A stretch of 33,066 bases of DNA from a virus. Below, piece by piece: positions 3,115 to 33,066 of this stretch. The notes under the pieces were generated by a model, which ran no database searches, had not been told where the DNA came from, and saw only the letters and a list, made by a program, of their open reading frames with translations. The stretch spans positions 1-33,066 of IMG/VR virus record IMGVR_UViG_3300043392_000025; one strand, 5' to 3'. Within the stretch, counting starts at the first letter, position 1. Every line of letters starts with the position of its first letter. Both the position numbers and the translations under genes were made by a program.

Positions 3115-4041
3115 TTAAATCAATACGGAATTTTTAGCCGTGTCCTGGATCTCACTCCAATAAAAGGCGGAGGCTTTGTCCTGGTCCACATTTATGTCGG
3201 CAAAATATGGTAGTTTTTCCCAGAAATCATTTTTATAAAACATGCCCTGGCTTCCATTGATCACTCCGGCATTGTGAAATATTGAATAATTGTCGATCGC
3301 ATCTGATCTGTAAGTCGGCCAGGCAAAATCGAGTCCTTGATCCACCTTTGTCTCATGTCCTCCCTTCCAGGCATTCCATAAAATTGACCACATCCCGGCG
3401 GTCCATTTTTGTATTGGATAGTCGTGATCATGTTTCATGACATAGTCTGACTCTTTGTAAATAAATAGATCGAAAAGGGCCACAGAATCCGCCTCCACTT
3501 TCGCCCAGAATTTCGCATCTGTATTTTTTACAATATACTGGGCACCGCCAGAATTTGAGTTCATGATTTTAGGGATCACTGGATCAATTCCTATGACCTT
3601 ACACATAGTCAAATAAAGATCATCCCCTTTTGTTTGAATGTAGTCGTAATTCAAATATGAATTTGTATCTGATAAATACCATGATCGACCTGGCTCGTAC
3701 TTATGCAGATGCGGAGGCTTTATGAATACCATGTCGCAGTCATGCAAAAAAAGGACCTGATTATGTAATTGATCAGATGCCTCGAAATGTTTTTTTAAGA
3801 GATGAAAGTAGATGGATGGGGCATAATGTTTCGCCTCTCGATCATTTTCGTAGAAATAAAAATTAACCAGGGGAAATCCTTGTTTGAGTTTGATCCAATC
3901 CTTTGGGATCTGTCCATCTTTAATCCCGACCAGGATCACCTGGTCCCTGGGATCAATTCCATTTTTGGCGAAATTTCTACACATGACCTCGATCTGCCAT
4001 GTGTAGAATTTATCCGCCGGTTGTGCACATACAAATTTCAT
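3115..4041 (-). CDS. GT-A-like glycosyltransferase
   Basis: A 308-residue protein. HDCDMVF at 100-106 is a DxD-type motif (D101, D103) after a hydrophobic strand, as in metal-dependent GT-A glycosyltransferases, where it holds Mn2+ and the nucleotide-sugar. The N-terminal part has alternating strands and helices as expected of a nucleotide-binding domain; HNAGV near residue 265 may be the metal-binding His region. The family fit is by motif and general pattern only. It is the last gene of the fibre block, directly after the oligo-threonine protein, which makes fibre or linker threonines attractive substrates. Host-surface or DNA modification cannot be excluded. Confidence 0.65.
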   Translation of the reverse strand: MKFVCAQPADKFYTWQIEVMCRNFAKNGIDPRDQVILVGIKDGQIPKDWIKLKQGFPLVNFYFYENDREAKHYAPSIYFHLLKKHFEASDQLHNQVLFLHDCDMVFIKPPHLHKYEPGRSWYLSDTNSYLNYDYIQTKGDDLYLTMCKVIGIDPVIPKIMNSNSGGAQYIVKNTDAKFWAKVEADSVALFDLFIYKESDYVMKHDHDYPIQKWTAGMWSILWNAWKGGHETKVDQGLDFAWPTYRSDAIDNYSIFHNAGVINGSQGMFYKNDFWEKLPYFADINVDQDKASAFYWSEIQDTAKNSVLI

Positions 4042-4042
4042 A

Positions 4043-4945
4043 TTACGGGCATCCCGTGAAACCAGTGTATGTCAATGTTTGCAATGTTCCACCTGGATCA
4101 CTTGTCAAAACATCGTAGATCGTGTAGTTCCGTGTTCCTATTTTAACTCGTTCACCCAGTGCAAAAGTCCCTGCCTGATAGCTAATAGAATATGCAAAGT
4201 TTCCATTTAAGCAATCCTCTACCATATACCAAACCATCGGAATGGTCGTGGTTGTTGTGGTAGTTGTCGTGGTAGTTGTCGCAGGACATGCCCCCACACA
4301 AGTAGTGTAAGCCACCCCATCCACAATCACCGCCGATCCTGGCCCTTGACCGGTGTCAGTTACCTGGTAAACATAATTACCTCCGGCGATATCTTTGTAA
4401 AAACGATTCGGGATCAGTGGTGAATTAACATCATATTTGATCTTTATTCCAGTAGCTACCGGACCAGATCCACAATCACCGCATAGATATTGATTTGCCA
4501 AATAATAGGCATACGGATCCGATGTGGTTGTGGTCGTTGTTGTGGTCGTTGTTGTCGTGCAGTTGATGCTTATCATTGCAGTCGTACCTTGGTTCCCAAC
4601 TGAATCCCTGGCAATGATGTAGTAATTTCCATTCGATACATTAAACTCGAATAGATAGGTGTAATCAAACCAATTCAATCCGTTATCGATCGAAACCTGA
4701 AACCCGGTTCCGGATCCGCCAGTCACAGATGTGATCCTGATCCTCCCCGTTTCACCGATACACTGCTGAGTGAATGTGATCACCACTGGTGCGTAGGTTG
4801 TTCGTTCAAATCCGTAAAAATTTGACATTTGATAAGGCGGATTGAATCCTGCATCGATCGATAAATCTTTTAAGGAGTTACTTGATGACATCAACTCCTG
4901 CTTGATCATCGTGATCGTTAAGGTACCGCTTGAAGGTAGTGCCAT
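4043..4945 (-). CDS. Virion surface protein with two oligo-threonine linkers
   Basis: A 300-residue protein made of three blocks. Residues 1-129 have an N-terminal segment (MALPSSGTLTITMIKQEL) ending in SNFYGF, which looks like a virion-attachment piece, and then a beta-rich domain. A run of exactly 12 Thr (130-141) leads to a Cys-rich domain with C-G-D-C. A second run of 12 Thr leads to a C-terminal beta-rich domain of about 66 residues. Both Thr runs are built from mixed ACN codons, so they are not simple DNA slippage products. Such linkers are typical O-glycosylation substrates, and the next gene is a glycosyltransferase candidate. Probably a fibre or decoration protein that binds host or environmental glycans. 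Confidence 0.65.
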   Translation of the reverse strand: MALPSSGTLTITMIKQELMSSSNSLKDLSIDAGFNPPYQMSNFYGFERTTYAPVVITFTQQCIGETGRIRITSVTGGSGTGFQVSIDNGLNWFDYTYLFEFNVSNGNYYIIARDSVGNQGTTAMISINCTTTTTTTTTTTTSDPYAYYLANQYLCGDCGSGPVATGIKIKYDVNSPLIPNRFYKDIAGGNYVYQVTDTGQGPGSAVIVDGVAYTTCVGACPATTTTTTTTTTTTIPMVWYMVEDCLNGNFAYSISYQAGTFALGERVKIGTRNYTIYDVLTSDPGGTLQTLTYTGFTGCP

Positions 4946-4946
4946 G

Positions 4947-5747
4947 TTATTTATTCAAAACCAGTGTATAAAGTTCCTTTATCGCCTCATTGTGCAAGGC
5001 AGTTAAATTCTGGATAGCCAGGCCATAATTGTCATTCTGATCCTTGTAAACAATTTCGGGAACCACCACCTCGGTGTCCTGGGCAATAAATCCTATCTGT
5101 CTGCGTTTGTCATCTGACTCTTTCTTTGTGAAATAAACACCTTGTAGATCCAGGACCTTTTTAAGTGCTCCTGTGATCGGTGTGATATTTTCTTTTGCAC
5201 GGCGATCCGATGTGATCACCACATCCGTAGTCGCCCGGATTGTACCTAATACATCCAGAGTGTAAGATGAATCAGATGACTGACCGAGTAATAAATGGCC
5301 ATTATCCAGGAGTTGCATCTTTTGACTTGATCCATTATACCAAGCCCATGCGGAGGCGTTAAAAACCATCGGAATAGTTGCCGATGAATTGTTCACGGCA
5401 TTCAATGCCAGGGCATTTTCTGTACCTAAAAATGAAACAAAACTAAAACCGCCATTCACCCCGGTTTTTGCTGATACACCGAATTTGTACAATGGGCTAT
5501 TTGATCCGATCATGACACCGGTCGTGTTCTCAAAGATGAACGATGATGATGCTATCGTGGTATTATTTGAAAATTTAGCAAGGTATCCACCAGTCCCAGA
5601 TCCGCCGATCGTTCCAGTGATCACAGATGACAGATCGCTGACCAGTTTCTTGTAAAGTGTTCCCGTAGTAGGATCGCCGACTACGATCAAATCTGTTCCT
5701 GCCAGTGATGGCTTAGTAGTTAATTGACTGATTTTTTTGTTTGCCAT
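4947..5747 (-). CDS. Tail fibre/spike with self-cleaving S74 intramolecular chaperone domain
   Basis: A 266-residue protein starting MANKKISQLT, a common fibre N-terminus, followed by a beta-rich Gly/Ser/Thr repeat region. The C-terminal 90 residues match the Peptidase_S74 chaperone: SDRRAKENI at 180-188 with the catalytic Ser180 and Lys185 at the expected five-residue spacing, then GFIAQD and an alpha-helical C-terminus. The domain trimerises the fibre and cuts itself off before Asp181. The mature fibre would therefore be only about 180 residues. It lies one base upstream of the oligo-Thr gene and after the oxygenase gene, within the fibre block. Confidence 0.85.
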   Translation of the reverse strand: MANKKISQLTTKPSLAGTDLIVVGDPTTGTLYKKLVSDLSSVITGTIGGSGTGGYLAKFSNNTTIASSSFIFENTTGVMIGSNSPLYKFGVSAKTGVNGGFSFVSFLGTENALALNAVNNSSATIPMVFNASAWAWYNGSSQKMQLLDNGHLLLGQSSDSSYTLDVLGTIRATTDVVITSDRRAKENITPITGALKKVLDLQGVYFTKKESDDKRRQIGFIAQDTEVVVPEIVYKDQNDNYGLAIQNLTALHNEAIKELYTLVLNK

Positions 5748-5756
5748 TTTTTTGTT

Positions 5757-6341
5757 TTATTTAAACGAACCGCCTCCGGCCCACAATACTAAACTCTTCC
5801 GTGTCCCGTTGAATGTCGGTGTCACCTTGTGCATCAAATAAGATGGAAAAATAATCACATTTCCCTTTCCTTTTGGTGTCACTTTTGGCTCGCCTCCGTT
5901 CCATAAAAGTAGATCGCCACCTTCGTAGTCCTCAGGATCTGACAACTGGACCACCACCGAAACCTTTCGGTGATTGATTGATCCTGGACCTATGTCCATG
6001 TGCCAGTCATAATGTCCCCCATCTCCATGATATTCGGTGAACTGGATGGAATCATTTACCCCATGAATTTCAAATCCCCAGAGTGCCTCATTTGCCTCCT
6101 TGATCATTTCAAAAATTCGGTTGTAAACCCACCCAGACTCATTCGTGTCGTGGATCCATTTGATCCTTGACTTTCTTACCTCTTCGTTTAATCCGTTTCC
6201 GATAGTTACGGCCTGCGAATAATCGAATAATTTTTCAAGGTTTGAGATCCACTCGATCTCTTCCTGGTTGAATCCTTTTTCAAAAAAGTAGAAATTTGTC
6301 GGATCCGTACTCAAATTGTCTTTTAAAAATTCCGGGTTCAT
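5757..6341 (-). CDS. 2OG-Fe(II) oxygenase, prolyl-4-hydroxylase-like (PKHD type)
   Basis: A 194-residue protein with the complete double-stranded beta-helix signature: iron ligands H114-x-D116 (WHMD), distal H171 (LMHKVTP) and R181 two-strand partner (GTRKSLVLW) for 2-oxoglutarate. FPSYLMHKVTP and YEGGDLLLW are typical of PKHD hydroxylases. The reaction uses O2 and 2-oxoglutarate to hydroxylate a substrate side chain, classically proline. The gene lies between the Gly-Pro-Thr collagen-like fibre (with one small gene in between) and two further fibre genes. A virion-protein substrate, especially the collagen repeat, is therefore plausible but not shown. Tailed phages often carry such oxygenases with unknown targets. 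Confidence 0.85.
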   Translation of the reverse strand: MNPEFLKDNLSTDPTNFYFFEKGFNQEEIEWISNLEKLFDYSQAVTIGNGLNEEVRKSRIKWIHDTNESGWVYNRIFEMIKEANEALWGFEIHGVNDSIQFTEYHGDGGHYDWHMDIGPGSINHRKVSVVVQLSDPEDYEGGDLLLWNGGEPKVTPKGKGNVIIFPSYLMHKVTPTFNGTRKSLVLWAGGGSFK

Positions 6342-6361
6342 TATGTTGTTTTTTGTTTAAT

Positions 6362-6781
6362 TTATTGACCAGTGTCAATTTTTGGGATTATTTTAACTGC
6401 CCACTCTGGCACCTCTTGGCTTGCCCAAGGCGGTAGTGTCGCCTTAGGTAAATTGTCGATAGACACATCATCAAATTGAGCAAAATGCAAAACTATTTCT
6501 TTTAATTTTTCATCGATTTTTAGTTTTAAATTATTGATTTTCTTTTCTCCTAAAAATTCAATAACCCATTTAATCAAAATTTCCTTATTTAATTCGTTGT
6601 AAGGAATCAATTCGTTTGAACTATAAGGGATTTCGACTGAATCAATTATAAAGGTATTGTATTCTCCCGAATACCCAATAATTGCAAACTCAATCTTTTC
6701 AATCAGTTGTTCACTTTTTTCTCCCCACTTGATGTCAGATGTGAAAGACTGAATAAAGTCAAATTTATATGTATTTTCCAT
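6362..6781 (-). CDS. Hypothetical protein, 139 residues, foreign-looking composition
   Basis: Not recognised. An Ile/Lys/Glu-rich soluble protein ending PPWASQEVPEWAVKIIPK. Its DNA is visibly more A/T-rich than the neighbours and contains no GATC, while adjoining genes have many. The same composition continues into the C-terminal tip of the collagen-like fibre upstream, so gene and tip were probably exchanged together. A tip-specific assembly factor or chaperone is a reasonable guess. Confidence 0.75.
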   Translation of the reverse strand: MENTYKFDFIQSFTSDIKWGEKSEQLIEKIEFAIIGYSGEYNTFIIDSVEIPYSSNELIPYNELNKEILIKWVIEFLGEKKINNLKLKIDEKLKEIVLHFAQFDDVSIDNLPKATLPPWASQEVPEWAVKIIPKIDTGQ

Positions 6782-6790
6782 TTTTAAATT

Positions 6791-8938
6791 TTAGTAAATT
6801 CTCCAACAATCGACATAGGCGGTTCCGCCTCCACCATTCACATTCCCAAATGGAAATTTTGCAAAAAGTCCACCGACTCCTCCGTTTGTCCCTGATTTTC
6901 CAAGGAATCCCATATATGAATCTCCACCTGCACCTGCGGATGTTAATGCGTAAAATTCAAAACCAGTTTGTTCGTTTGAATAGTAGCCACTTGCAGGGCA
7001 ATAAGTTATAACGGCACTAATGTAAAAAGGATAAACGCTTGACACATACCTAACTCTAATAAGGTAAACCCCATTATAGGTTAAAGTATTAATCGGAATC
7101 AATGTTCCATAGTTGCCCGCAAATCCGCCCGCACTATTGATAGTTACACTTGTCGAATAAATTGATAAATATGATGGACCAGTTGGACCAGTTGGCCCCG
7201 TTGGCCCAGTTGGTCCTGGTGATCCCGTTGGCCCAGTTGGACCTGGTGATCCAGTCGATCCCGTTGGTCCAGTTGATCCAGTTGGACCTGGTGATCCAGT
7301 TGGTCCCGTTGGTCCTGGGGCTCCGGTTGATCCAGTTGGACCAGTCGGTCCAGTTAAACCAGTATCTCCTTTTAATCCTTGTGGTCCAGTTGGGCCAGTC
7401 GGTCCTGGTGCTCCGGTTGGACCAGTTGGACCAGTTGCTCCCGGGGCTCCATCTTCGCCAGGCTCTCCTTGTAAACCTTGCGGTCCAGTTGGACCAGTTG
7501 GACCTGGTGCCCCGGCTGATCCCGTTGGACCAGTTGGTCCAGTCTCTCCCTGGATTCCTTGCGGACCAGTTGGCCCTGGTGCTCCATCATTTCCATCAAA
7601 ACCAGGCTCTCCCTGGATTCCTTGTGGGCCAGTTGGTCCCGTTGGACCGGTTGGTCCAGTTAAACCAGTTGGTCCGGTAGGACCTACGGGGCCAGGTGCT
7701 CCATCTGAACCAGATTCGCCCTGGATCCCCTGCGGTCCTTGTGGGCCAGTCGGGCCAGTTGGGCCGACATCGCCAGTGTCACCTTTATCTCCTTTTAATC
7801 CTTGCGGTCCCGTTGGACCCGTTGGACCAGTTAGTCCAGTTGCTCCCGGTGCTCCATCCGATCCGTCAATACCAGGCTCTCCTTGGATACCTTGTGGTCC
7901 AGTTGGTCCCGTTGGTCCAGTTGGACCAGTTAAACCGGTCTCCCCTTGGATCCCCTGCGGACCAGTTGGACCAGTGGGTCCAGTTAAACCGATAGGACCA
8001 GTGTCTCCTTGATCTCCTTTGTCTCCCTTAATTCCCTGCGGTCCTTGCGGTCCAGTTGGACCAGTTAAACCGATTGGCCCAGTTGGTCCAGTTGGACCAG
8101 TCAAACCAGTCGGACCTTGTGGACCAGTTGGGCCAGTCGGTCCAGTTGGACCTTCCGAGATTGTAAAAGTTTGATTTTGGCTCAGATCCTTTGTCTCTCC
8201 GTTAATCGTTATCGTAGTCGATTTGTCCGCCTTATCATTTAATGCGTTGGATAGATCTGTCTGACTTGAAAGTGTTCCGGTGATCCCACCCCACGCAGTC
8301 ACAGACTGAGTCTTGATCGCTTCAAAGTGACCATCAATCCATCGGTAAACTATGTCGGTATCGTTGGCGATATACATACGACCTACCACACCAGTCGCAG
8401 GAAAATCTGCAAGTGTTGGAAAGTCAAGTAAGATCTTAAAAGTTCCTATCGATCCATCTGGTCCGGAGTTTGATCCGTTCCATTCCGGATATTCGAATGT
8501 GCTTGGAACCTGACATCTGTCCGATAGCATCGGATAAACGATTGATAGATCCACCTGCACACCTGCAAGGAAATCGTTTTCTTCTTCGGTGAATAAGTTA
8601 AACGAAAAATTATCCGGAATATTCCAGTCGAATTTCGGGTATCTCATCATCGAGATAATATCCTGGGCGATCAATAACTGATCACTCACCGCATCGTTCT
8701 CATCTGACTCATCCTGGAATTGGCGATCAAAAAAGAAGATCGAGAAATCCATGGTCAGATCCTTTCCCTGGATATTTGTTCCGGTGCAGTTGTAAAACAT
8801 CGCCGGGTAAACATTGTCTTTTTGGCTTAAAAACTCATAGACATCCCCGTAGTAAATCGTTTTAATCTGCTCATGGCTTTCCGCTATTTGCTTGATTAAT
8901 CTGATTGTTTGATTGAGTGTTAATTGTTTCTTTGCCAT
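6791..8938 (-). CDS. Collagen-like fibre fused to an N-terminal tail-associated domain
   Basis: A 715-residue protein. Residues 1-150 form a globular domain (helical start, then YYGDVYEFL) resembling the small tail-terminator-like proteins that Bacteroidetes phages carry at this position. Residues 155-260 are a linker and strand domain. About 263-590 are roughly 109 uninterrupted Gly-x-y triplets, dominated by Gly-Pro-Thr with Gly-Pro-Gln, GLKGDKGD and GAPG variants. About 591-715 form a Gly/Tyr-rich C-terminal tip, probably the trimerising and receptor-contacting head. Collagen repeats form long stiff trimeric rods. Gly-Pro-Thr triplets are known O-glycosylation sites in bacterial collagens, and Y-position prolines (GAP, GSP, GEP) could be hydroxylated. 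The repeated DNA invites copy-number change. Confidence 0.9.
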
Positions 8939-23000: not shown

Positions 23001-24020
23001 TTATTGGTTTAGTAGTCCTTTATAGATAGCCGATCGATATTCATTTAGCTTGAAAATATCAAAATGCTTGCGGACATATTCCCCATTAGACTGACCGAAA
23101 TCATCTCGCATCTGCTTACTGAATGCCATTCTCTTCATGTCTCTCTCCCAGTTTTCTACTTTGAAAACATGCGGTAAATCCTGGTAAGGATCTCGATCCC
23201 ATGTCATGATCGGAATATTTTTCGCACCGGCTTCCAGGGCTTTAAGATTTGACTTCATGGCATTAAATTTATTCAATAATAACGGGGCCACCAGGACATC
23301 CGCCACATTGTAGAAATTCATGTATTGATCCACTGGCATCGATTCAATGATCGCATGATCCAGTTTACCTCCTGCGGTGAAATGACTGGCCATCTGATCC
23401 CATTGGAATGCGTTCACTTTGTTATATCCACATAGGATCATCTTGGCCGACTCAGTGAAGGACTTTTGTTTTGCCAGTTCACGCATCGGAGTTTTTAACA
23501 TTGCCAGGTCAGGAAGGTGAGTCACAGATCCAGTGTGTACAAAATTTACTTTGTCATGATCCTGGCGGAGGCTCACAAATTGGTCCTTATCAAATGGCAG
23601 GCCGTTTGGAATGATGTCACACTTTTTGTTGATCTTGATGATCTCAGCCCATAGCCGTGAATTTGTAGTCGTAACCAGATCCGCAGTCTTGATGTTGAAT
23701 TTGATCAAAGATGGGATCGAGTTCTTTATGTACACCGGTCGCATAATGTGCTGAGAATTTAGATCCCAATAGTCATCAATATCGACTACCAGTTTAAATC
23801 CATATTTCGCCTTTAATGACTGGATTTCATACCAGTGGATCCCTTCAAAATATCTGTTCACTACTACCAGATTAATCTTCTTTTCTTTGATGATCTCTTC
23901 TGTGATCGTGTCAGTTATCATGAGATACTCCTTCGCCATCAATGACAAAGGAAGGGCCAGTCTGTGATAGGTCACACCTGAGTGTCTATTTCCGACTGCG
24001 AGAATTCTTAGGTTTTGCAT
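23001..24020 (-). CDS. GT-B fold glycosyltransferase
   Basis: A 339-residue protein. The N-terminal Rossmann-like half has ILAVGNRHSGVTYHRL, VVVNRYF and VVDIDDYW. The linker PNGLPFD leads into a second Rossmann domain (VNFVHTGS, MILCGYN) and a C-terminal NLKALEAGAKNIPIMTW that resembles the acidic nucleotide-sugar-binding region of GT4-type enzymes. Likely transfers a sugar to a phage or host acceptor such as virion protein or surface glycan. Base J-like or DNA sugar addition cannot be excluded. It stands alone between regulatory genes and the terminase, far from the other glycosyltransferase candidate. Confidence 0.8.
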   Translation of the reverse strand: MQNLRILAVGNRHSGVTYHRLALPLSLMAKEYLMITDTITEEIIKEKKINLVVVNRYFEGIHWYEIQSLKAKYGFKLVVDIDDYWDLNSQHIMRPVYIKNSIPSLIKFNIKTADLVTTTNSRLWAEIIKINKKCDIIPNGLPFDKDQFVSLRQDHDKVNFVHTGSVTHLPDLAMLKTPMRELAKQKSFTESAKMILCGYNKVNAFQWDQMASHFTAGGKLDHAIIESMPVDQYMNFYNVADVLVAPLLLNKFNAMKSNLKALEAGAKNIPIMTWDRDPYQDLPHVFKVENWERDMKRMAFSKQMRDDFGQSNGEYVRKHFDIFKLNEYRSAIYKGLLNQ

Positions 24021-32371: not shown

Positions 32372-32584
32372 TTAAGACAATTTGAAAAATCTATTATCAT
32401 TTCTGAATGAAACATAAAAACTTTTTGAATTACCATACAAAGATGAAGGTGTCCCATAAAGTCCGACACCATTCCAGAAATTTGCAATTAAGATCAATTC
32501 TGTTTTTTTATTTGAAGGAATTAATTTTTTAAAATTCGAACCTTTGATGAATTTGTTCGCCATTGAAATTGATAAGTTTTCCAT
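32372..32584 (-). CDS. Small hypothetical protein, 70 residues, first gene of the early operon
   Basis: Not recognised. MENLSISMANKFIKGSNFKK, then a strand-rich C-terminus with NGVGLYGTPSSLYG and FYVSFRNDN. I chose the ATG at 32584 since the other copy of this region (left end) has one T fewer just upstream, which would break the longer frame from 32629. It lies about 40 bases downstream of the promoter, making it the first protein made from this unit. Confidence 0.65.
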   Translation of the reverse strand: MENLSISMANKFIKGSNFKKLIPSNKKTELILIANFWNGVGLYGTPSSLYGNSKSFYVSFRNDNRFFKLS

Positions 32585-32626
32585 GATTTTTACGGGTTTT
32601 TTTTTAGTAGCACACTGACTACCTGA

Positions 32627-32634
32627 CAAAGGTA
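32627..32634 (-). promoter_or_regulatory. Bacteroidota-type promoter -7 box (right copy)
   Basis: The same TACCTTTG (TAnnTTTG) box as at 149-156, about 42 bases before the ATG at 32584. This copy is the one that drives the early genes in the window. It is unchanged between the two diverged copies. Confidence 0.6.
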
Positions 32635-32698
32635 TAAATAAAATTCAATATGAAAAACTTTTTAATAAAAATTTTAAAAGTTTTTTTTTCTGGACCAA

Positions 32699-32726
32699 AA
32701 AGATGGGGGACAAAATCCCCCTCTTT
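32699..32726 (-). terminator. Rho-independent terminator (right copy)
   Basis: Same hairpin as at 220-247; the stem bases are conserved although neighbouring positions differ between copies, which supports a functional role in ending the transcript before the early promoter. Confidence 0.75.
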
Positions 32727-32771
32727 AATCATTTTTAACCCGTATTACCATAAAATAACCCCCAAAACTAA

Positions 32772-33066
32772 TCAAAAAATATGTGTGATCCTTGCCACTT
32801 GCCCAAATTGTTTATTATGAATGAACCCCTCGCAGGCTTTGGTCGATGTATATCCGTTCCGATGGTGCCAGGAATCGGTCCCAGATGGCGATCTCAGCGA
32901 CTCGACACAGATCCCGTTTATATCCTTTGAGACTTTGTGATGTAGGTGATGGGAATAAACATACCGGTGTTTAGTCTGTGACCATTCGATCGGTGCCTCA
33001 GTGGCCATCAACAGAGGCAGGTCGGTAGTCTTGGCCCCATCGCCGTGTGTGGTCCCGATTAGGTTG
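32772..33066 (-). CDS. Metallophosphoesterase, C-terminal part (second-strain copy)
   Basis: The last 98 codons of the gene at 293-1411, continuing past the window edge. It keeps GTTHGD and the SHHLHH motif. Over the shared part only Val/Ile exchanges change the protein although many third positions differ, as expected from strain divergence under selection and not from sequencing error. Confidence 0.85.
   Translation of the reverse strand, partial: NLIGTTHGDGAKTTDLPLLMATEAPIEWSQTKHRYVYSHHLHHKVSKDINGICVESLRSPSGTDSWHHRNGYTSTKACEGFIHNKQFGQVARITHIF

Follow-up and report, generated by a model that had tools for sequence, protein, structure and literature searches.

Two putative enzyme–substrate pairs for self-decoration in a tailed phage: a collagen-linked oxygenase and an oligo-threonine-linked glycosyltransferase

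Why should a tailed phage encode a collagen-like fibre, an oxygenase, an oligo-threonine (oligo-Thr) protein and a glycosyltransferase (GT) within 6 kb, and on what do the two enzymes act? The question is posed by a stretch of 33,066 bases, IMG/VR virus record IMGVR_UViG_3300043392_000025 (hereafter the window), in which the genes transcribed after DUF6712 encode, in order, a fusion of a neck domain to a collagen rod, a DUF7936 protein, a 2-oxoglutarate (2OG)-Fe(II) oxygenase, a Peptidase_S74 fibre, an oligo-Thr protein and a GT. A first-pass annotation of positions 3115–8938 had proposed that four of these genes form a single cassette with which the phage hydroxylates and glycosylates its own fibres. 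All four are real minus-strand open reading frames (ORFs), and their residue-level description (109 Gly-x-y triplets, two 12-Thr runs, H114/D116/H171/R181 in the oxygenase and a DxD motif in the GT) holds, although the S74 fibre, the DUF7936 gene and the neck domain had been overlooked. In locus surveys the collagen-linked oxygenase and the virion-linked GT each proved to be a conserved pairing, but the four-gene unit found no support, since an oxygenase-family gene occurs in none of 80 GT loci and a GT in none of 80 oxygenase loci. We therefore favour, with a probability of roughly two-thirds (0.66), two independent enzyme–substrate pairs that are neighbours here, in which the oxygenase modifies the collagen fibre and the GT glycosylates the oligo-Thr linkers. 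From the genes, catalytic residues, folds and statistical coupling of enzyme to target we infer the modification itself, and with it which residue is targeted, which sugar is added, where on the virion the targets lie, and any effect on stability, adsorption or masking.

The survey of oxygenase relatives comprised 80 sequences (59 distinct), and counts were restricted to loci with at least 4 kb of flank. In 19 of 37 distinct loci a same-strand collagen ORF has its end no more than 4 kb upstream of the oxygenase, while among 50 distinct loci none has a collagen ORF starting within 4 kb downstream (Fisher p 2.5e-9). In a tree of 87 oxygenase sequences 57 come from collagen-bearing loci, including 10 of the 12 nearest to the window. 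The nearest relatives (L082–L086, 62% identity, same phage family) share the order DUF6712, a 112-aa protein, collagen (896 aa), a DUF7936-like protein (141 aa) and oxygenase. The DUF7936 protein of the window is 25% identical (E 1e-8) to the 141-aa protein in the same slot of L082, and this intervening protein is possibly a fibre chaperone or an enzyme adaptor. A reverse scan starting from the DNA of Gly-Pro-Thr (GPT) collagens recovered the oxygenase in 10 of 112 loci, as against none of 196 GT, neck and major capsid protein (MCP) loci.

The enzyme itself scores well above the PF13640 gathering cut-off of 27 bits and carries both the metal triad (H114, D116, H171) and the 2OG-binding arginine (R181); in an alignment of 36 sequences H114 and H171 never vary, while conservation reaches at least 90% at D116 and R181. 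Its predicted model (mean predicted local distance difference test, pLDDT, 90.7) finds its closest solved folds among prolyl hydroxylases, namely T. adhaerens PHD (Z 20.7), PHD2 (20.5) and the prolyl 4-hydroxylase (P4H) of P. putida (20.4), with further matches to C. reinhardtii P4H in complex with (Ser-Pro)5 (19.5) and to PBCV-1 vCPH (18.1), and several of these nearest prolyl hydroxylases were solved with a peptide substrate.

Further evidence comes from the company that this oxygenase keeps in marine phages. In many marine loci a protein of 750–820 aa with GT4, GT25 and 2OG parts lies between collagen and oxygenase, and its profile (A4) matches Mimivirus L230 (E 3e-33) and human LH3 (5e-32) in the 2OG part and COLGALT1 (3e-23) in the GT25 part. 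Across a survey of 43 distinct loci, collagen is found within 5 kb upstream of the GT4-GT25-2OG gene in 30 of 31 and downstream in none of 34, and a window-type oxygenase starts within 1.5 kb downstream in 29 of 37, mostly at a spacing of −3 to +12 bp. The collagens of these phages place lysine at the Y position 4361 times and at X only 6 times, with a median Y-Lys content of 18% compared to 0% in GPT-pattern collagens (p 4e-13), in which Lys also favours Y (203:26). In the cultured Synechococcus phage S-CAM9 successive genes encode a collagen/S74 fibre (59 triplets, Lys in Y 22 times and in X never), a small protein, two PF13640 oxygenases and a 614-aa hypothetical protein (L547 9525–11369) that combines GT25, GT_PLOD (E 8e-47) and a C-terminus resembling lysyl hydroxylase (LH); cultured cyanophage S-8S55 has the same gene order by annotation. 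Runs of collagen genes with GT25 and LH3/L230-like 2OG proteins (plus GT4) were also observed on marine contigs L097, L104, L116, L128 and L552–L622. The A4 profile, which matches the marine relatives, found no LH-type domain in the window, and we read the window oxygenase as the putative prolyl-hydroxylase arm of such a marine-type collagen-modifying system. We consider it fairly probable that phages run an animal-like pathway on their own fibres (lysyl hydroxylation, GT25 galactosylation, GT_PLOD/GT4 glucosylation and prolyl hydroxylation, their genes forming a single operon-like run with those for collagen), that the window represents a reduced variant keeping the prolyl-hydroxylase arm, and that phrog_4417, the family of the window GT, is a widespread builder of oligo-Thr O-glycans on capsid and tail proteins.

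Several observations weigh against the assignment of the oxygenase to collagen. The first-pass annotation had named independent occurrence of the two genes as refuting its proposal, and about half of the loci with sufficient flank (18 of 37) indeed lack a collagen ORF within 4 kb, even though the positional coupling is strong where collagen is present. The surveyed loci are related by descent, so that p values overstate their independence; moreover, flanks are often cut and close relatives over-sampled. Remote homologues in CRP-810, P-SSM7 and S-CAM1 are not adjacent to collagen, and in a 735-kb phage a gene of 51% identity adjoins a topoisomerase, so the oxygenase family is broader than a collagen role. 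Some of the loci without collagen adjoin other Gly- or Pro-rich repeat proteins. In L158 (8297–9103) and L160 (7948–8778) VPGNANYNPF and GGNFAGNNP repeat proteins were seen directly upstream of the oxygenase, in the place of collagen.

By sequence, too, the enzyme is nearest to PKHD-type hydroxylases (PiuC, Sbal_3634), although its best score against the NCBIfam equivalogs of this group (PiuC/YbiX) is 57.6 bits, compared to a cut-off of 143. The PiuC fold (Z 18.5) follows closely behind the prolyl hydroxylases (Z 18–20.7), and the P. putida P4H among the nearest folds was solved with EF-Tu. Together with the remote homologues away from collagen, these affinities suit an enzyme directed at something else, be it EF-Tu or some other host protein, nucleic acid or another PiuC/PKHD-like target, and found near fibres only as phage cargo genes gather there. 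We regard this as unlikely, given that collagen in the sampled loci lies upstream of the oxygenase and never downstream, and that in many of them a procollagen-type LH-GT25 enzyme belongs to the same gene run.

If the oxygenase does act on collagen, which proline would it choose? Y-position prolines had been put forward as canonical P4H sites, along with the suspicion that a preponderance of X-prolines might signify a different specificity, and of the two the suspicion fits better. In oxygenase-linked collagens Pro occupies X at a median of 52% and Y at 0.4%, while the X-Pro-Gly substrate of animal-collagen-type P4H is offered by 13 of the 109 window triplets; an animal-type, Y-specific enzyme would therefore find little substrate in most relatives. 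This rarity of the usual P4H site counts against a collagen substrate, as does the finding that Pro content does not differ clearly between oxygenase-bearing and other GPT-type phage collagens (p 0.17). Bacillus anthracis P4H, for its part, hydroxylates prolines at both X and Y in collagen peptides (PMC8968730). In the mechanism we propose, the oxygenase would hydroxylate prolines of the fibre, whose gene lies two genes upstream; the frequent X-prolines of Gly-Pro-Thr/Gln triplets are the most likely sites, perhaps joined by the 13 Y-prolines, and the modification would strengthen the triple helix of a rod attached at the virion neck. Synthetic (Gly-Pro-Thr)n is not known to form a stable helix, but a peptide of this type does so when X holds 4-hydroxyproline and Y holds Thr, or when its Thr is galactosylated; stabilization of the former kind would give a physical reason for the enzyme.

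The presumed substrate is a genuine collagen-like protein by its long Gly-x-y repeat and PF01391 match. Its rod is one unbroken run of exactly 109 triplets, of which 42 are GPT, 58 have Pro in X and 13 have it in Y; when this protein was shuffled 2000 times, no run exceeded 10. The first 147 residues of the fibre match, in 36 loci and at 63–67% identity, a protein of ~150 aa that is free-standing in most relatives of the same family, where its gene comes after those of portal and DUF6712. Because of this gene order the collagen fibre would sit at the virion neck. Other long fibre-type C-terminal extensions of the neck protein occur in L188 (10001–11551, 516 aa) and L189 (10001–13378, 1125 aa), so fusion of a fibre to this protein arose more than once; among the neck-protein relatives examined a collagen rod is found on it only in the window. 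In L162 the stop of the neck-protein gene overlaps the start of an S74 fibre gene, and gene order in L162, L167 and L171 marks the S74 fibre of the window as an ordinary one, its counterparts in relatives coming after the neck gene.

The second pair has its own statistical support. Among 80 GT relatives (67 distinct), runs of at least 7 Thr lie within 4 kb upstream of the GT in 36 of 52 loci and downstream in 1 of 49 (p 1e-13); a looser Thr/Ser tract is present within 4 kb upstream in 49 of the 52 distinct loci, in 40 of them within 100 bp. Within the phage family of the window, runs of at least 7 Thr occur in 16 of 26 loci with the GT and in none of 120 without it (p 6e-15), the looser tract being less specific (23 of 26 versus 21 of 120). 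All 24 GT-bearing isolates or prophages examined carry Thr-rich tails on the MCP, the major tail protein (MTP) or a neighbouring protein, as exemplified by phiFL1A MTP, iLp84 gp8 and MCP, 1706 orf13, bIL285 orf50 and VPE25, while the tails of LP65 and SAC12B consist of TETQTQ and TTVKP repeats rather than pure Thr runs. A reverse scan from poly-Thr DNA recovered the GT in 13 of 103 loci, nearly always adjacent. Pfam families GT2 and GT4 also turned up among the genes that follow randomly chosen poly-Thr ORFs, so that phrog_4417 is one of several such partners. Genome-contig profile scans gave six prophage-type loci with a Firmicutes GT member and no match with the Bacteroidota-type GT.

In the oligo-Thr protein both runs are exactly 12 Thr long, compared to a maximum of 8 in 20,000 shuffles, and are written in mixed ACN codons, an indication that the tracts are held at the protein level and are not a DNA microsatellite. 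The GT matches the phrog_4417 profile over residues 1–301 (E 1.2e-58), and is thus a full-length member. No Pfam or NCBIfam model matches it, none of the 28 phrog_4417 members compared finds a Pfam family at a meaningful E-value, and a sequence search of the PDB returned only apparent chance matches. Its predicted structure (pLDDT 94.4) is nearest to glycogenin (Z 15.5), LgtC (15.0) and the Skp1 galactosyltransferase (14.8). The DxD motif (D101/D103) is invariant in 28 aligned sequences and H256-N257-x-G259 is conserved; the protein thus has the GT-A fold, the DxD and, if H256 plays that part, the C-terminal metal-binding His of GT8 enzymes. In view of the absent Pfam membership, the model suggests an enzyme that works like a GT8 rather than one that is a GT8, and, as a point against the assignment, the fold match fixes neither acceptor nor sugar. 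An origin among HPAT/GT95 enzymes, raised by an N-terminal WQ...M motif, found no support, as the 28 members show no HPAT-type Pfam match and the nearest folds are glycogenin and LgtC; since we know of no solved HPAT structure, this makes such an origin less likely rather than refuting it. Some phrog_4417 homologues are fused to radical-SAM/SPASM (L019, L038, L081) or methyltransferase domains (L025, L036, L052), and most of these adjoin oligo-Thr proteins; others are fused to possible GT2 domains, all as expected for glycan tailoring. Short Thr-rich ORFs in another frame, overlapping or following the end of MTP or MCP, were observed in L281 (SA2, 3667–3930), L523 (TPWB06, 2720–2926) and L530 (VPE25, just upstream of the GT), and suggest that frameshifting may add oligo-Thr tails to some copies of major virion proteins.

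Collagen threonines had been suggested, beside those of the linkers, as acceptors of the GT. Because the GT tracks oligo-Thr in phages where collagen is absent, the likely acceptor is the oligo-Thr protein encoded just upstream and not the collagen, and the GT8-fold enzyme would place sugar on Thr of its two 12-Thr segments, turning them into mucin-like linkers. The tracts might alternatively be unmodified flexible linkers or simple-repeat by-products, with the GT altering host surface glycans for serotype conversion or superinfection exclusion. Many phage GTs do modify host glycans, and a second GT (23001–24020, phrog_7162) indicates that the window phage has other glycan business. This possibility nonetheless appears improbable to us in the face of the mixed Thr codons, the adjacency of GT and oligo-Thr in 40 of 52 loci and in phages of Firmicutes and Bacteroidota, the complete lack of runs of at least 7 Thr in the 120 family loci without the GT, and the Thr tails at MCP and MTP C-termini in isolates. 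Least probable is a joint system in which oxygenase and GT act together on the rod by hydroxylation and then Thr or Hyp glycosylation, for although all the genes lie within 6 kb in the window, collagen, oligo-Thr and GT genes are consecutive in L019, and bacterial Gly-x-y exosporium proteins (BclA) are known to be glycosylated (PMC8968730), GT and oxygenase co-occur in none of 160 loci outside the window and only 4 of 80 GT loci contain at least 10 Gly-x-y triplets.

Table 1. Positions of the fibre and enzyme genes and their sub-features in the window
Feature	Position	Strand	Remarks
Glycosyltransferase, 308 aa, phrog_4417 family, GT-A (GT8-like) fold; proposed oligo-Thr O-glycosyltransferase	3115..4041	-	
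Oligo-Thr surface protein, 300 aa, presumed GT acceptor	4043..4945	-	Two T12 runs; adjacent-upstream slot kept across GT relatives
Second 12-Thr tract, aa 223-234	4244..4279	-	
First 12-Thr tract, aa 130-141	4523..4558	-	
Tail fibre with Peptidase_S74 intramolecular chaperone, 266 aa	4947..5747	-	PF13884 E 3e-16
2OG-Fe(II) oxygenase, 194 aa; proposed prolyl hydroxylase of collagen fibre	5757..6341	-	PF13640 58.7 bits
DUF7936 protein, 139 aa, between collagen and oxygenase genes	6362..6781	-	PF25590 30.4 bits, cut-off 27
Neck-domain/collagen fusion fibre, 715 aa	6791..8938	-	PF01391 E 1.3e-48; phrog_5073 tail fibre E 5e-118
Collagen-like rod, 109 consecutive Gly-x-y triplets, aa 263-589	7172..8152	-	
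N-terminal 147 aa of fusion fibre, homologous to stand-alone ~150-aa neck-region protein	8498..8938	-	

These genes (Table 1) belong to a tailed-phage block on the minus strand with terminase, tape-measure-type protein, protease, capsid, portal and DUF6712 genes, where the MCP and tape-measure names rest on position and weak profile matches. The second GT mentioned above stands beside the terminase genes, distant from the fibre region, and phrog_7162 was not found in any fetched relative. The window ends (1–587 and 32478–33066) are 96% identical over 589 bases, with 21 mismatches and 2 gaps; although IMG/VR appears to class the contig as linear, it is thus probably an almost complete genome in circularly permuted form, with strain variation where its ends overlap.

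Across relatives each enzyme keeps company with its presumed target, a pattern which suggests that chemical self-decoration of particles occurs in many phages and in some of them involves animal-type collagen-modifying enzymes. In tailed phages, cultured cyanophages among them, homologues of LH3, COLGALT1 and P4H are encoded next to collagen, with Lys placed where lysyl hydroxylase acts. If the proposal is correct, phages would offer a large and so far unexploited supply of enzymes that modify collagen and function in bacteria, and glycosylated virions would be far commoner than the handful of cases on record. With the phrog_4417 assignment, a family labelled ‘hypothetical’ acquires a testable function; it occurs in well-known phages whose hosts are lactococci, lactobacilli, enterococci and staphylococci. 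No earlier report of a phage collagen with a prolyl hydroxylase or 2OG-Fe oxygenase, or of a phage poly-threonine GT, was found in the open-access literature.

Known systems resemble this arrangement in part. The EPclA-type tail fibres of E. coli prophages form a genuine triple helix and likewise have Pro in X, but unlike the window fibre they are discussed as lacking a prolyl hydroxylase and have no partner oxygenase (PMC3368898); according to the same work, the prolyl hydroxylases required for collagen proline at Y are absent from bacteria and viruses, to which giant viruses are an exception (PMC8968730). PBCV-1 vCPH (5c5t) is, like the window oxygenase, a small viral 2OG enzyme of P4H fold (Z 18.1 over 165 residues), yet shares 18% identity with it, comes from a eukaryotic algal virus, and is named for a collagen-type substrate that for the window enzyme we infer. 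In Bacillus anthracis a bacterial P4H acts on collagen peptides and the collagen-like BclA bears glycans (PMC8968730), although this is a chromosomal exosporium system rather than a phage fibre, and kinship of the enzyme to that of the window is taken at the fold level only. For mycobacteriophages Che8, Corndog and Myrna, glycosylation of capsid and tail-tube proteins by phage-encoded GTs has been described (Freeman et al. 2023, as cited in PMC12363180), and on that citing account they resemble the action proposed for phages with phrog_4417; in contrast to the latter, Che8 gp108–110 have no convincing phrog_4417 match (best E 0.02), and oligo-Thr tails are absent from the MCP and MTP of Che8. 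Another parallel is that of Mimivirus L230, and of human LH3 (PLOD3) with COLGALT1, where a virus-encoded hydroxylase and GT meet a virus-encoded collagen; the window differs from it in lacking an LH-type protein, in its small PF13640 oxygenase and in a GT of another family, while its marine-phage relatives share LH and GT25 homologues, and in S-CAM9 a GT_PLOD homologue, adjoining their collagen genes.

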